33,331 bases of DNA from a virus, in the IMG/VR virus record IMGVR_UViG_3300029787_000088, positions 1 through 33,331 of that record, one strand, 5' to 3'. The position numbers and the translations under genes were made by a program. Below, piece by piece: positions 4,159 through 21,896 of this stretch. Within the stretch, counting starts at the first letter, position 1. Each line of letters opens with the position of its first letter. Under the pieces are notes generated by a model. The model was not told the DNA's origin. It worked only from the letters and a program-made list of their open reading frames with translations, and ran no database searches.

Positions 4159-4731
4159 TTATATTCCCGCTACCGCGGCTTTGTAGAAGTGCTCGTTAAT
4201 TGTAACTACGAAGTTAACGTTTGAAGTTGTTAAATCGTTGTTATCAATGTTAGTCGATACTCCCATTACTTTTAGCTGACCTGAAGTTGTACTTACAGTT
4301 GAGTCATCTAGCTCTACTTTTGAAACGTAGTTAGCTGAATCACCTGCTGCATACAAGATGTCGTAATTCATGAACACATCAGTTTGCGCTGAGGCAAGTG
4401 TGTTGTCCGATTGAATTTCGAATCTTTCATACGGGTCATCTGCTACGAAAGCAACAATATCTGTAGCTGTGTTAGAAGCTTTCAGATTGTTTGCAAACGT
4501 AGGCTTACTTGTGTTTGCGTCGGTAAAAAATATTCCGTTCAAAGAACCGATCAGTGTTTCACCAGCTGCCGCAACTCTTATAGTTCCTTGAGACGCTGCT
4601 CTCACAGGGTCTTGGAAATATATAGCTGCTGAACTAGCAGATACACTGTACTCGGATAAACCTTGATTGGCATCATTTTGTCCGACTTTTCCGATCGGTC
4701 TTAGACCGAACGCTGCGTCTTTATTTGCCAT
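4159..4731 (-). CDS. Capsid decoration-like structural protein
   Basis: 190 residues, starting MANKDAAFGLRPIGKVGQND. The 'DAAFGLRP(I/V)G' opening is typical of conserved virion proteins encoded immediately upstream of the capsid gene in marine phages. The rest is Ala/Thr/Ser-rich and beta-predicted, with 'VAFVADDPYERFEIQSD' near the centre. A strong AAGGAGG site precedes the start. Placement directly before the major capsid gene supports a head-surface role; this is inferred, not shown. Confidence 0.7.
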   Translation of the reverse strand: MANKDAAFGLRPIGKVGQNDANQGLSEYSVSASSAAIYFQDPVRAASQGTIRVAAAGETLIGSLNGIFFTDANTSKPTFANNLKASNTATDIVAFVADDPYERFEIQSDNTLASAQTDVFMNYDILYAAGDSANYVSKVELDDSTVSTTSGQLKVMGVSTNIDNNDLTTSNVNFVVTINEHFYKAAVAGI

Positions 4732-4773
4732 GTTATGTCCTCCTTATGAACATTTTAGTTTATCCTCTAGTGG

Positions 4774-16080: not shown

Positions 16081-16333
16081 CAAAAAAAATTTCTGCAAAA
16101 TTTTTAGAGGTTGATTTTGAAACCTTGCAAAGTATTTATAACACACTTATGTACAAAACCTAGCATAAAGTGTTTGATCTGGGACCCCTTTTTGTAAAAA
16201 AAGAAAAAGCTTTTTTAAAAAATTTCAAAATCGATAATGGCTCTGGTACCTCTATGCCGGGGCCGAAGGCCCTGTGGAGCGCGCCCCGCAGGGGCGCACA
16301 ACCTGTAGTTGATGCATTTATTGCATACAACTT
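16081..16333 (-). other. Gene-free stretch with serial GC hairpins upstream of terL
   Basis: Reading the minus strand after the 16334-16546 gene: a bulged hairpin GTTG-ATGCA/TGCAT-(A)-CAAC (16308-16331), a strong 7-bp stem GCGCCCC/GGGGCGC with a 3-base loop (16281-16297), and GGGC/GCCC (16263-16275). A poly-A/T tract with AAAAAGCTTTTTT (16205-16217) follows, then an A/T-rich leader to terL. The GC stems in AT-rich DNA and the poly-T tract beyond suggest a transcription boundary between the early and late units. No gene is seen. Confidence 0.5.
16294..16311. repeat. 18-bp repeat, copy 1 (core CAACCTGTAGTTG)
   Basis: GCGCACAACCTGTAGTTG is identical at 17594-17611, exactly 1300 bases away. Its core CAAC-CTGTA-GTTG is a dyad, so it could be an operator or a small hairpin. 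The core overlaps one arm of the bulged hairpin 16308-16331, so the two structures exclude each other in RNA. Confidence 0.7.
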
Positions 16334-16971: not shown

Positions 16972-17529
16972 TTAATTTTTAAAGTTTGGGAGTGCCTGTA
17001 AATCTTGGTTCCACCTTAACCCAATCTTTTTAGATACATTGTCTAAAGCTATTGCCAGTGTATCTGGTGTTCCGCTTTCCATAACAACATCAAGAGCTTT
17101 TGTTTTAAGGTCTTTAAGTTGTTTAAGTTTAGCGCCTTCAGGTCTTCTCTCAATTTCTCGTTCTGCGAGAGTAGACGCCCAGTCCCTTAATTGATCCTCA
17201 CAATCACGAAGAGTTATCTTATCATCATTGTATCTACCATTATAACCTTTTGTAAAATTATAATTTAAGTCTTGATCTTTTGGTTTTTTCTTTTCAAAAA
17301 ATGTTAGTGCTGTGTTTCTTGCTTCCTCCAACATTTTTTCTGCTTGTCTAAACTTGGCAATAATTTTATCTGCGCCCATTTTTTTAGACAGCTTATCAAC
17401 CGCTTTGTCAGTTGCTTCAGTCTTAAATTGTTTAACCAATAATTCTTGCTCGTCAATCATTGGGTTAAATTGCCTTTTCACTTTATTTCTAAAATGATCT
17501 AGCTGATATTTAGTCATTGTTTTACTCAT
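16972..17529 (-). CDS. Conserved helical protein, unknown function
   Basis: 185 residues, MSKTMTKYQLDHFRNKVKRQ, wholly helical and charged, with a long predicted coiled coil (about 25-80) and 'LRDCEDQLRDWASTLAERE' in the centre. It has its own promoter and AAAGGA ribosome site. Its position and strong control suggest an early gene. I recognise it as recurrent in marine phage genomes but know no function. Confidence 0.7.
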   Translation of the reverse strand: MSKTMTKYQLDHFRNKVKRQFNPMIDEQELLVKQFKTEATDKAVDKLSKKMGADKIIAKFRQAEKMLEEARNTALTFFEKKKPKDQDLNYNFTKGYNGRYNDDKITLRDCEDQLRDWASTLAEREIERRPEGAKLKQLKDLKTKALDVVMESGTPDTLAIALDNVSKKIGLRWNQDLQALPNFKN

Positions 17530-17553
17530 ATTTATTTTTCCTTTCTATATCCC

Positions 17554-17582
17554 ACACTATCCTATATCTAATATCTTGTCAA
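17554..17582 (-). promoter_or_regulatory. Candidate promoter for the 16972-17529 gene
   Basis: TTGACA (17577-17582), spacer 17, TAGTGT (17554-17559) on the minus strand, with TATAGGAT (17559-17566) overlapping the -10. The leader of about 18 bases holds AAAGGA before the ATG. The -35 is perfect; the -10 is weak. Confidence 0.5.
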
Positions 17583-17593
17583 GTCCTATTCCT

Positions 17594-17611
17594 GCGCACA
17601 ACCTGTAGTTG
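17594..17611. repeat. 18-bp repeat, copy 2 (core CAACCTGTAGTTG)
   Basis: Identical to 16294-16311; here it lies 12 bases upstream of the TTGACA box of the 17554-17582 promoter (minus strand), a position suited to an activator or repressor. In this copy the dyad extends to ACAAC-CTGTA-GTTGT. An inverted 14-bp copy is at 18129-18142. Confidence 0.7.
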
Positions 17612-17622
17612 TATGGTCCAGT

Positions 17623-17637
17623 TTAGAATGGTTCTAA
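17623..17637. promoter_or_regulatory. Perfect dyad TTAGAA-TGG-TTCTAA
   Basis: A 15-bp perfect inverted repeat between the two minus-strand promoters at 17554 and 17687. It could be an operator. A 15-codon reading frame (starting at 17671 on the minus strand) ends in it, which might be a leader peptide but has little support. Confidence 0.35.
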
Positions 17638-17686
17638 TGTAGATTTTTTATTATATACACTAACCACCATCCCCAGCCACCGTCCA

Positions 17687-17715
17687 AGTGTATAGGATAA
17701 TTTAGGATACGTCAA
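17687..17715 (-). promoter_or_regulatory. Second candidate upstream promoter (TTGACG-17-TACACT)
   Basis: Minus strand TTGACG (17710-17715), spacer exactly 17 containing two TATCCTA copies, TACACT (17687-17692). It would send a longer transcript through the 18-bp repeat and the next promoter. The doubled TATCCTA suggests two regulator half-sites in direct orientation. Confidence 0.45.
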
Positions 17716-17729
17716 GAAAATAATTTAAG

Positions 17730-17738
17730 TTATCCACA
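17730..17738 (+). promoter_or_regulatory. Consensus DnaA box
   Basis: TTATCCACA matches the E. coli R1 DnaA box exactly. It lies in an AT-rich, gene-free stretch between divergent transcripts. Only one was noticed, so it may be a binding site for host DnaA in control or initiation, or chance. Confidence 0.45.
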
Positions 17739-17764
17739 AATTTATTTTGGTCCTTGCCTTATTC

Positions 17765-17795
17765 TTGCCTCATTTCTCCTATATACTCCTAATAT
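17765..17795 (+). promoter_or_regulatory. Weak candidate promoter for the plus-strand island
   Basis: TTGCCT (17765-17770) and TAATAT (17790-17795) with a 19-base spacer, followed by AAGGAG before the 17814 gene. The spacing is long, and other -10 choices (TATACT, 17782) have worse spacing. Confidence 0.3.
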
Positions 17796-17813
17796 AACAA
17801 AAAGGAGAAATAT

Positions 17814-18080
17814 ATGTCAGAGCAAAAATACTTCGTCATCCGAAAAGATAAATGGTTTGATGGAAAAGTTAAATTTACAATCTGTAAGGATAGAACATTC
17901 ACCCTGGAAGAAGCTACAAGAAATTTATTAGCTTACGACCAATTGAATGATAATAAAGATTACAGTTACCACCTTCAGAAAGTTGACCCTCAATTTATGG
18001 AGGACACTAACCCTTTAGTTTTAAGTGAGGATATGGAAGTTAAAACCAATGGGAAAGGTGAAGAAGAATTGCCATTCTAA
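17814..18080 (+). CDS. Small plus-strand protein, unknown function
   Basis: 88 residues, MSEQKYFVIRKDKWFDGKVK, alpha/beta with an acidic end (KTNGKGEEELPF, a C-terminal 'LPF' reminiscent of single-strand-binding-protein tails but too little to assign). AAGGAG lies seven bases before the ATG. Its stop codon sits in the loop of the first hairpin of the structured region that follows. First gene of the plus-strand island. Confidence 0.65.
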   Translation: MSEQKYFVIRKDKWFDGKVKFTICKDRTFTLEEATRNLLAYDQLNDNKDYSYHLQKVDPQFMEDTNPLVLSEDMEVKTNGKGEEELPF

Positions 18081-18300
18081 CGAATGGTAACGGCTCCTGG
18101 GTATGAGCCTTGATAATAACTGCCCGGGACAACTACAGGTTGAACTTGGAATTAAAGCCATGCAACCTGTACTGATCCCTGGTCTATTAGCTATCCGGGT
18201 CGCGCCCGTACCGTTGATGGACCTGGGATCAGTGGGCCCTCGATAGAGGCTAAGCCCTGGTGCACCGGTAAACAATTGCCGCTGGGCTTCAACACCCGCT
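18069..18300 (+). ncRNA. Candidate structured RNA element (chain of hairpins)
   Basis: Successive helices, all directly visible: 18069-18077 with 18082-18090 (9 bp, one G-U, stop codon TAA in the loop); 18092-18096 with 18105-18109 (5 bp); 18134-18142 with 18163-18171 (9 bp); 18171-18184 with 18220-18233 (13 bp around one T-T mismatch); inside it 18196-18199 with 18205-18208; 18238-18241 with 18246-18249; 18252-18257 with 18284-18289. The stretch is much richer in G+C than surrounding DNA and has no coding signal. It may be a 3' UTR structure of the 17814 gene or a separate RNA; helices would also form on the minus strand. No known RNA class recognised. Confidence 0.6.
18129..18142. repeat. 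Inverted third copy of the CAACCTGTAGTTG element
   Basis: ACAACTACAGGTTG is the reverse complement of the core at 17599-17612. Here it forms one arm of a 9-bp hairpin with CAACCTGTA at 18163-18171, so it has been built into the structured element. Confidence 0.6.
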
Positions 18301-18303
18301 GGT

Positions 18304-18331
18304 CGAGCTTCAAGCTTCAAGCTGCAAGCTT
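18304..18331 (+). repeat. Short CAAGCNN heptamer array
   Basis: Four adjacent 7-mers: CGAGCTT (variant), CAAGCTT, CAAGCTG, CAAGCTT. They end inside the -35 box of the GP88-family gene. Same unit as the longer array at 19072-19171. Confidence 0.7.
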
Positions 18332-18361
18332 GACAGGTGACAAGGATTTATGGTATAGGAT
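18330..18361 (+). promoter_or_regulatory. Promoter for the GP88-family gene
   Basis: TTGACA (18330-18335), 18-base spacer, TATAGG (18354-18359) within TATAGGAT, the same element as at the minus-strand promoters. AAAGGAG lies just downstream, so the leader is short. A heptamer array overlaps the -35. Confidence 0.55.
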
Positions 18362-18376
18362 TATAAAGGAGAAATT

Positions 18377-19009
18377 ATGAATACAAAAGAAGCGTTAAAA
18401 ATTATCGGAGGCCTTAGTAAGCCTTCTAAGATGCCTGGATGGGCGTATGGATTACCTGCTAAAGAATGCAAAACAGGTTCCAAGCTGGTGAAGGTTAAGG
18501 GCAGCGTTTGCGAAGGTTGTTACGCTCTCAAAGGCTGCTATGTTTTTAAAGTTGTGCAGGATGCGCAGTATAGAAGACTAAAGGCCATCAGGTCACCACT
18601 ATGGACCGGAGCAATGGCAGCGTTAATCAACAGTAAGAAATCAAAAGAATTTAGATGGCATGACTCGGGCGATGTTCAGGACGAAGAACACCTGCTCAAG
18701 ATCTTTGCAGTTGCAGGGTTGACCCCGAAGGTCAAGCATTGGATGCCAACACGAGAAGCATGGGTCAAAGCCTTCCTGCCTCTATGTCCCAAGAATTTAG
18801 TGATCAGGTTCTCCGTCCCGATGGTGGACCAATCCAGGCACAAGGCGCCCAAAGAGTGGAGAAATACTTCTACAGTCTCAAGTGATTTAAATAAAACTTT
18901 TACAAGTGAGGGCCATTTCTGCCCTGCTCCAAAACAAAACAACGAATGCGGAGATTGCCGGGCTTGCTGGGACGCTAGAATTAAAAACGTAGTCTATGGC
19001 AAGCATTAA
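18377..19009 (+). CDS. GP88-family phage protein
   Basis: 210 residues. 'GGLSKPSKMPGWAYGLPAKE', 'CKTGSKLVKVKGSVCEGCYA' then 'LKGCY', 'FRWHDSGDVQDEEHLLKIF', 'KHWMPTREAWVKAFLP', 'NLVIRFSVPMVDQ' and a C-terminal 'CPAPKQNNECGDCRACWD' make up the 'gene product 88' family known from mycobacteriophages and others. The Cys pairs (C-x-x-C-Y and C-x-x-C-x-x-C) could hold a metal. 'RWHDSGD' is the family's best-conserved block. No activity is known to me. It has its own promoter and AAGGAG site. Codons are richer in G+C than in neighbours, hinting at acquisition. Confidence 0.8.
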   Translation: MNTKEALKIIGGLSKPSKMPGWAYGLPAKECKTGSKLVKVKGSVCEGCYALKGCYVFKVVQDAQYRRLKAIRSPLWTGAMAALINSKKSKEFRWHDSGDVQDEEHLLKIFAVAGLTPKVKHWMPTREAWVKAFLPLCPKNLVIRFSVPMVDQSRHKAPKEWRNTSTVSSDLNKTFTSEGHFCPAPKQNNECGDCRACWDARIKNVVYGKH

Positions 19010-19176
19010 TGTGGTATCACCCCAAGTACTACAAAGAATTGAAAAAGATTCGGAAAGAGTTTGAGAGGCAACAAGCGGCAAGCGTCAAGCGCCAAGGTTC
19101 TCAAGATGAAGGAGGCAAGCATCAAGCTGCAAGCGGCAAGGTTCAAGCTTCAAGCCGCAAGCGTCAAGCTCCTTGA
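19009..19176 (+). CDS. 55-residue protein ending in heptamer-encoded tail
   Basis: The start overlaps the GP88-family stop by one base (TAATG). It opens MWYHPKYYKELKKIRKEFER and continues into a Gln/Ala/Ser/Lys tail ('QQAASVKR', 'HQAASGKVQASSRKRQAP') encoded by the CAAGCNN array. The first 20 residues look like a real helical protein; the tail is the in-frame reading of the repeat. Coupling and the sensible N-terminus support it. Function unknown. Confidence 0.5.
   Translation: MWYHPKYYKELKKIRKEFERQQAASVKRQGSQDEGGKHQAASGKVQASSRKRQAP
19072..19171 (+). repeat. CAAGCNN 7-bp tandem repeat array
   Basis: Four units at 19072-19099 (CAAGCGG, CAAGCGT, CAAGCGC, CAAGGTT), a 16-base interruption, then eight back-to-back units at 19116-19171. 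The first five bases are nearly fixed (two units have CAAGG); the last two vary. It overlaps the end of the 55-residue gene on the plus strand and of the nuclease gene on the minus strand. A 7-base unit read in triplets gives a 7-residue period. Confidence 0.85.
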
Positions 19177-20739: not shown

Positions 20740-21471
20740 TCAAAATGATGGGCATTCAAACTCCTCAGTGTTTCCAGGTTCCTGGGGCTTGGGCCTTGGT
20801 ACATGATATTGCCAGTAATCACTCACTTTTTGTAACCATATCTCACTTCTCGCCCTAAATTCGTCAGGATTTAGCCAAAATTCAGTCACATCTCCACCCA
20901 TCACGCTAACTAGAATCATTCCAGAACAGATCTTCGTTCCATACATATCGTTATGAGCCATCGCATACGCAGCCGCTTGGTTAAAATAATCTTCGCATTG
21001 TCTTTTAGTCTTCGGGTTGTTGCTTTGTTTAAAGTCTATAATACACTCTTGACCTTTGTAGACTCCCACAACATCAGCGGTCCCAGCGTACAATCCTTCA
21101 TAAGCTAACATTATCTCATTACCCCAGACCTCATTAAGATTTTTAAGAAAGCCATGGTCAATGATAGCCTGAGCCAAGAGGCCTGCTTCCTGACCTCTAG
21201 GAGTTAGATCAGCGTGACGTTCTCCAGTCATCTCACCTTCAAGAATCCTATGCATAATCGTACCACGTACAGCAGCATCGTTCTTAATCTTCTCAGCTTC
21301 TTCTTCACCTACTCGTTCTCTCCACCTAGCCAAAGCTATCGCTTTACCTTGGTCCGGAACTGCGGATAGGATGGTTGTAACAGAGGGTAATTTTTCTCCC
21401 CATCGGTATCGTCTTGTACCATCAACTTCAACTCTAGCTTTCTCAGGTGTTGTTATATATTTAAATTTCAT
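20740..21471 (-). CDS. RecB/Cas4-type PD-(D/E)XK exonuclease
   Basis: 243 residues. 'LPSVTTILSAVPDQGKAIAL' opens the domain, 'RGTIMHRILEGE' carries the RecB-type His74, 'YAGTADVVGVYKG' Asp133, 'ECIIDFKQSNNPK' D146-x-K148 and 'YFNQAAAYAMA' the Gln165 motif. The order is complete, so the enzyme should be active, probably a single-strand exonuclease for recombination, or for recycling host DNA. AAAGG lies 6 bases before the ATG, and its start overlaps the homing endonuclease stop (TAATG). Similar enzymes sit in the replication module of T7-like and marine phages. Confidence 0.78.
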   Translation of the reverse strand: MKFKYITTPEKARVEVDGTRRYRWGEKLPSVTTILSAVPDQGKAIALARWRERVGEEEAEKIKNDAAVRGTIMHRILEGEMTGERHADLTPRGQEAGLLAQAIIDHGFLKNLNEVWGNEIMLAYEGLYAGTADVVGVYKGQECIIDFKQSNNPKTKRQCEDYFNQAAAYAMAHNDMYGTKICSGMILVSVMGGDVTEFWLNPDEFRARSEIWLQKVSDYWQYHVPRPKPQEPGNTEEFECPSF

Positions 21472-21896
21472 TAGTTAACCTTTCTATATTCATCTAAGCT
21501 AACTATGTTTTTAGCCTTTTGATTATCGTAATGAGCAATGACTTGATTAATTTTTTCTAGTTTGGTGTGGGCGTGAGGCCACAGTAATAGACACACGTAA
21601 TACGCGTCTCTAAATGTACAGCGCCATCTGTATTGTTTTAAATACGGAGTACCATCAACCCGTTTACCCTTACGCGGCTTGTCAGTTAGCGTCCCAACTC
21701 CTAACACTTCATGGACCCATAGGAGTACAGACTTATCAGTCATTGTTATTTCCATAGATAATCGCATACTATTAGACATACGATAACCCGGTTTTCCTTT
21801 GTGTTTCTTTTTCTTTTCCCATCCTCGTTTGATGTGAATACTACCTTCACCATCAAACAGCCCAGCAATGTAGGCTATTTCTGTTTCTCCAAGCAT
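21471..21896 (-). CDS. Freestanding LAGLIDADG homing endonuclease
   Basis: 141 residues with one copy of the motif 'YIAGLFDGEGSIHIK' at 9-23, so it should act as a dimer. 'LSMEITMTDKSVLLWVHEVL' and 'GVGTLTDKPRKGKR' follow, then 'WRCTFRDAYYVCLLLWPHAH', as in phage and organelle members. It starts inside the 3' end of the methyltransferase gene, behind AGGAG, and is coupled to the nuclease gene after it. It may cut DNA of related phages lacking it and spread itself. No intron is visible around it. Confidence 0.8.
   Translation of the reverse strand: MLGETEIAYIAGLFDGEGSIHIKRGWEKKKKHKGKPGYRMSNSMRLSMEITMTDKSVLLWVHEVLGVGTLTDKPRKGKRVDGTPYLKQYRWRCTFRDAYYVCLLLWPHAHTKLEKINQVIAHYDNQKAKNIVSLDEYRKVN

Follow-up and report, generated by a model that had tools for sequence, protein, structure and literature searches.

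The window analyzed here is a 33,331-nucleotide stretch that forms part of a 47.8-kb virus record (IMG/VR IMGVR_UViG_3300029787_000088). On its + strand, a chain of hairpins lies between a small open reading frame (ORF) and a GP88-family gene. The upstream ORF (17814-18080) encodes 88 amino acids without a family match, and its stop codon falls in the loop (TAAC) of hairpin 1, a predicted 9-bp helix at 18069-18090, as the original prediction had described. Homologues of this ORF precede the same chain in two related contigs, L117 and L160, in which hairpin 1 is retained with altered pairs; the hairpin is absent from more distant relatives. Downstream, the GP88-family gene (PF17338, phrog_1392; 18377-19009, + strand), the usual neighbor of the chain, starts about 70 nt after the chain end. 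Its likely promoter, identified by eye, lies in between (18330-18361, + strand; TTGACA and TATAGGAT separated by 18 nt), and a consensus promoter scan gave a neighboring weaker match instead. Repeats of the CAAGCNN heptad type (18306-18329, + strand) separate the chain from this promoter. The tandem heptads, located at 18306-18335 directly before the GP88 promoter, occur again at 19061-19176, in a short ORF after GP88. Heptad pairs occurred in the 900 nt preceding GP88 at 73 of 74 related loci and also in 53 of 53 downstream control segments, and the heptads are possibly a protein-binding array acting at the DNA level. Elsewhere in the window, a terminase small-subunit gene lies 1.4 kb from the chain, and a minus-strand ORF (21471-21896) matches LAGLIDADG homing endonucleases (PF00961, E value of 6e-6).

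The span 18069-18300 had been singled out as a hairpin chain in a G+C-rich island within AT-rich DNA, and both parts of this description were borne out. The predicted minimum free energy of its + strand was -103.6 kcal/mol, and none of 200 dinucleotide shuffles was equally stable; the z score was -7.0, compared to -3.1 for the complementary strand. In a coarse fold scan of 444 windows covering both strands, the + strand windows at 18151 and 18069 ranked 1 and 3, and few parts of the window are as structured as this region. The same scan pointed to an unusually stable fold at 4501-4732 on the minus strand, in the coding region of the ORF at 4159-4731 (z = -7.2, and -4.8 when rerun). The G+C content was 0.545 in 18100-18299 versus about 0.33 in the DNA on the left. 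The original prediction saw no coding signal; the ORF list of the window holds no long + strand ORF covering 18069-18300, and a minus-strand ORF of 99 codons with a TTG start traverses the chain probably by chance. The inverted copy of the CAACCTGTAGTTG element said to lie in the chain is exact, 18129-18142 matching 17599-17612 as its reverse complement; another copy, of 13 nt, is found at 16299-16311. The strand concerned, ACAACTACAGGTTG, spans the junction between modules A and B described below, with its inverted copies both outside the chain; DNA from 17600 onward is retained in several relatives.

A search with the Rfam covariance models (4227 families, which include GOLLD, ROOL, and OLE; PMC12286853) gave no match above the gathering cut-off in the window or in 16 related loci (106 kb), and no plausible subthreshold match in 17500-18800. 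On this absence of matches in the window and its relatives, a known RNA class was rejected for the chain. No tRNA or tmRNA was detected in the window, and no description of a pelagiphage noncoding RNA was found in open-access papers. A type III antitoxin of the ToxI kind, in which short pseudoknots are repeated in tandem ahead of a ToxN-like toxin gene, was also rejected, since the pseudoknot described below is single rather than tandem and the downstream gene, GP88 (PF17338), belongs to no toxin family. The proposal of a possible new structured RNA, which was to be judged by compensatory base changes among related phages, gained support from this lack of an Rfam match and from the compensatory changes found in modules A, B, C, and E.

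Module A (18092-18127, + strand) is predicted to form an H-type pseudoknot with two crossing helices, each carrying compensatory changes. Stem S1 pairs 18092-18096 with 18105-18109, and stem S2 pairs 18097-18103 with 18121-18127 across the linker UUGAUAAUAAC; the consensus reads GGCUC-C-UGRGNNA-U-GAGCC-NUNAUAAUAAC-UNNYYCA. Among the matches listed (50 distinct sequences), pairing was kept in 93.8% of the cells, and double changes affected 8 of the 13 pairs (4/6 in S1 and 4/7 in S2), one S2 pair being seen as G-C, U-A, A-U, C-G, and G-U. Covariation calculated over these related sequences with no tree correction was 0.355, a value reached by 0 of 500 shuffles (0.164 after shuffling), and the signal was lost when the partners were slid by one base. 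Part of S1 had been fixed in the initial scan; another scan that left S1 free recovered GGCUC/GAGCC, GCCUC/GAGGC, GGGUC/GACCC, and GGCAC/GUGCC, with pairing kept in each. Because S1 and S2 both covary, the pseudoknot replaces a simple 9-bp hairpin at 18095-18129. The helices of the original prediction were confirmed as a chain, except that for the second 9-bp helix, stem 2 of the pseudoknot is the better interpretation.

A TTGAC element occurred at -38 to -35 in 54 of the 101 module A copies listed, compared to 21 matches elsewhere in the upstream 100 nt, and the pseudoknot therefore appears to start with the first transcribed base or shortly after it. In other copies, including that of the window, it follows a stop codon. 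Module A was also found alone, without a chain, where it forms the 5′ leader of genes for small proteins: L106, L107, L109, L144, L166, L172, L193, and L196, the lone copy of L193 leading a 529-amino-acid ORF resembling a primase/helicase. In a few contigs it stands by itself ahead of a small gene's ribosome-binding site, and module A therefore does not need the chain. Five other contigs (L008, L105, L116, L154, and L190) carry a further module, ACUUGCACCAGAAAAAGCAAGU, after the pseudoknot, which in L190 has a compensated stem (ACUUAU/AUAAGU).

Module B (18134-18171, + strand) is a hairpin in which UACAGGUUG and CAACCUGUA flank the conserved apical motif AACUURGAAUUWAAGCYAUG. Stems of 6 to 16 bp that differ in sequence enclose 25 of the 26 listed matches to the motif AACUUNGAAUUWAAGCNAUG, and the inner UGG/CCA pairs alternate with UAG/CUA. 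Module C (18172-18232, + strand) is a long arm whose base is formed by strand P (CUGAUCCC, 18172-18179) and strand Q (GGGAUCAG, 18225-18232), followed by a U18180-U18224 mismatch and a variable tip at 18185-18219. Two families of base strands were found among relatives, CUGAUCCC/GGGAUCAG and UUGAGCCC/GGGGUCAA; the adjoining U-U mismatch is conserved, and the tip is free to vary. The P:Q tip helices, taken as the six pairs past the mismatch, were paired at 0.88 and 0.98 for the two families versus shuffle maxima of 0.70 and 0.79. Wobble pairs in the arms were G-U in 167 cases versus A-C in 19, a count that ends at the first helix break and thereby favors G-U somewhat; this excess points to an RNA of the + strand. 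The arm tips were also enriched in perfect palindromes, with 262 six-base palindromes versus 109 with a one-base spacer and 1.84 times the expectation, compared to 1.01 in the other DNA of the loci.

Strand Q has a second potential partner, strand R (CCCGCUGGUC, 18295-18304, + strand), which in the window could form a 10-bp helix with Q and its extension (18227-18236) that would enclose module E. The structured unit runs on to 18304, past the end of the originally predicted extent. Across the units examined, R tracks the family of Q: CUGGUC follows GAUCAG in 87 of 205 units (14 with the other R), and UUGRCC follows GGUCAA in 91 of 125 (26 with the other R). The Q:R extensions were paired at 0.55 and 0.64 versus maxima of 0.51 and 0.57 in 300 shuffles. 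Judged from these pairing patterns, both P:Q and Q:R are evidently under selection. In the window, the predicted energy of the P:Q state is -62.3 kcal/mol versus -55.2 kcal/mol when P is left out, making P:Q about 7 kcal/mol more stable. We infer that the RNA may switch between the two pairings.

Following a small fold-predicted hairpin (CCUC-GAUA-GAGG, 18238-18249, + strand), module E (18251-18291, + strand) consists of an outer stem (18252-18257 with 18284-18289) enclosing a self-complementary octamer (GGUGCACC, 18259-18266) and UAAACAAUU (18269-18277). In relatives, the outer stem AAGCCC/GGGCUU also occurs in compensated AG/CU and GA/UC versions, and it encloses the octamer together with a fixed UAAAYAAUU. 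A module E scan that left ten bases free yielded, among the matches listed, 94 distinct contexts with a 3′ GGGC. Perfect palindromes made up 91 of these 94 octamers, with 16 different sequences overall; of the remainder, two pair with themselves through one G-U, and one is a chance match that belongs to no module. The four octamer pairs are kept without exception in the 34 distinct module E sequences, in which the two central, adjacent bases are C-G (14), G-C (9), A-U (6), or U-A (5). Natural octamers include GGUGCACC and GGUCGACC. Since adjacent bases cannot pair within one chain, their covariation points to RNA-RNA homodimers; a second copy of the octamer within 700 nt was absent in 158 of 159 listed cases. 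The same adjacent-base criterion for intermolecular loops was used in a 2025 cryo-EM study of OLE and GOLLD (PMC12286853), and RNA dimers have been reviewed (PMC7357161). From this pattern, homodimerization through the module E octamer is likely, while the palindrome could serve as a symmetric DNA site instead.

Hairpins in the transcripts of T7-like phages act as decay barriers or as RNase III processing sites. The chain might likewise be merely a 3′ untranslated region (UTR) stabilizer, i.e., a barrier against 3′-to-5′ decay of the small-gene mRNA, or an RNase III site marker. Several arms are indeed long helices, and the chain begins at the stop codon of the small gene in the window, L117, and L160. 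However, about half of the listed module A copies have no gene between promoter and chain, and a plain barrier leaves the P/Q base sequence, the U-U mismatch, the apical motif of module B, and the octamer unexplained, so that we hold this explanation to be highly improbable.

To follow the chain among related phages, we fetched 80 viral contigs using nothing but the GP88 protein; in the phage collection, its closest relatives came mostly from Pelagibacter phages. Only patches of the chain, never the whole, align with the upstream regions of relatives, and a DNA-similarity search of catalogued phages found no close copies of it. The modules recur in changing order and number and are sometimes nested, as with module E inside arm C in L060. 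Such short, reordered, nestable units with patchy alignment would fit mobile palindromes acting at the DNA level, i.e., REP- or MITE-like cassettes spreading between phage intergenic regions with pairing as a by-product. In contrast, the G-U excess and the strand dependence of the folding energy are expected for RNA, as are the covariation of the pseudoknot and the constant placement of module A directly behind promoters; moreover, tips and octamers differ freely between copies with pairing kept. REP/MITE-like palindromes were rejected on the strand preference, and we consider the DNA-level explanation improbable.

At 74 loci chosen by GP88 alone, the 900 nt preceding GP88 held both P and Q in 55, compared to control segments downstream of GP88, where P occurred in 1 of 53 and Q in 0 of 53. 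The patterns of the other modules were found at 8 (A), 7 (B), and 5 (E) of the 74 loci; each being absent from many loci, none of the three seems singly essential. Each module was also retrieved, without recourse to GP88, when the viral collection was scanned for its pattern; the resulting counts do not represent frequencies in nature. Among the copies listed with enough sequence, GP88 lay within 1.5 kb downstream of 57 of 78 for module A and 89 of 110 for module E, and chains without GP88 within more than 6 kb were seen in L112, L140, and L142. The chain appears to be a partner or neighbor of GP88 rather than an obligate companion. The AlphaFold model of GP88 was poor (pLDDT of 54.5), and a fold search gave no E value better than about 0.15, the matches at about 1 including many tRNA-guanine transglycosylases; a paper on phage 7-deazaguanine enzymes makes no mention of gp88.

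The phage HTVC027P (MN698241.1) carries a promoter (TTGACA...TATATT) and an arm-C chain (17,730-18,155; L081, 3265-3690) before its GP88 homologue, gp33; no P/Q pair was found near the homologue in HTVC033P, CRP-125, or Seuss. Module A was present in 1 of 397 SAR11-order genomes, that of L296, a single-cell genome of a Pelagibacteraceae bacterium that also contains a chain, probably from a phage whose DNA was present in the sorted cell. The 61 genome-collection matches to module A were otherwise at chance level. A host gene was thus rejected, the only SAR11-order genome with module A among those searched being a probable phage carrier.

The frequent proximity of GP88 raised the question of a cis-acting leader or attenuator, in which P:Q and Q:R would be alternative folds of the nascent transcript that set the GP88 mRNA level with no role in trans. 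Strand Q is common to both pairings, and gp33 and gp34 of HTVC027P form their own expression cluster at 6 to 9 h after infection (PMC12753301); strand-specific RNA-seq of this infection is public (PRJNA1253180). No + strand terminator-like site, i.e., a G+C-rich hairpin with a U run, was found in 17500-18500, and the chain RNA may therefore be joined to the GP88 mRNA. However, GP88 apparently has its own promoter after the chain, a TTGAC-type pattern lying within 75 nt of its ATG in 32 of 74 loci, and the chains far from any GP88 gene also speak against a leader. In addition, we found no anti-terminator/terminator pair with a U run, and a cis leader has no need of a constantly self-complementary octamer. 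We therefore regard the leader as unlikely. Of the three roles originally put forward, a small RNA with a function in infection fits best, given the promoters upstream of about half of the module A copies and the chains without a nearby GP88; a GP88 control element is less likely.

Comparison among relatives establishes that the modules, as predicted, fold on the + strand, that tips and loops change fast while pairing persists, and that the chain lies between other small genes and, usually, the GP88 gene. Tree correction is unlikely to overturn the structure, given how varied the pair types are, that scans were also run without bias, and that adjacent bases cannot pair within one chain. Reasoning from sequence comparison, we think that 18092-18304 probably encodes a noncoding phage RNA that belongs to a new family and is assembled from exchangeable hairpin modules; this RNA would act in trans, associate with itself, and be protected at its 5′ end by the pseudoknot. 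The pseudoknot would mark the 5′ end of a stable RNA, whether this end lies at the transcription start or directly behind a stop codon, and might block 5′-to-3′ decay by an RNase J-like enzyme of the host. Within the host genus, 10 of 13 genomes have an RNase J-like gene, and the same family search was also positive in most control genomes, making the RNase J link weak. Two RNA molecules would then join through the module E octamer, and perhaps also through the arm-tip palindromes; P:Q and Q:R would be two alternative states, and joining at module E may favor Q:R. The paired RNA would act in trans in early to middle infection. Between modules that are otherwise nearly identical, the octamer switches as a unit, with at least 16 self-complementary versions. 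One could speculate, although we doubt it, that it is a coded self-recognition loop, such that RNAs of like phages pair together and not with those of other phages, and that a concentration-dependent flip from P:Q to Q:R senses the phage's own copy number or co-infection by a like phage.

SAR11 bacteria are the most abundant in the ocean, and phages infecting them carry this predicted, unrecognized RNA. It precedes GP88 in most of the related contigs examined and is absent from Rfam, meaning that protein-centered annotation has missed a part of those infections. Few natural RNAs apparently self-associate, and this RNA would join them as a compact, modular case; its variable octamer would amount to a natural set of orthogonal RNA-RNA contacts.

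The closest known systems include GOLLD and ROOL, RNAs of phages and prophages that form homo-oligomeric cages (PMC12286853). Like them, the RNA described here is phage encoded, noncoding, and richly structured, and it shows adjacent-base loop covariation as a sign of pairing between like loops, here at the level of sequence only. In contrast, its chains measure about 210 to 600 nt, compared to 659 nt for ROOL env-120 and more than 800 nt for many GOLLD RNAs. GOLLD and ROOL often occur near tRNA islands, whereas the present chains are mosaics of modules beside GP88, not tRNAs, and have no Rfam match. Exoribonuclease-resistant RNAs and 5′-terminal pseudoknots also place a compact pseudoknot at the start of a transcript. 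Module A shares this position but differs in sequence, and it also stands alone before small genes. The pRNA of phi29 is a small phage RNA that joins its own copies by loop-loop pairing, through two different complementary loops on a fixed fold. The same kind of joining is proposed here, with one self-complementary loop and a variable fold. Finally, the retroviral dimerization initiation site is a short palindrome in a hairpin loop that changes between viruses and stays self-complementary. Module E differs from it in that its 8 nt sit in a 26-nt loop with a conserved UAAAYAAUU flank, in a DNA phage with neither reverse transcription nor a genome dimer; nonetheless, its loop palindrome likewise varies and yet remains self-complementary.
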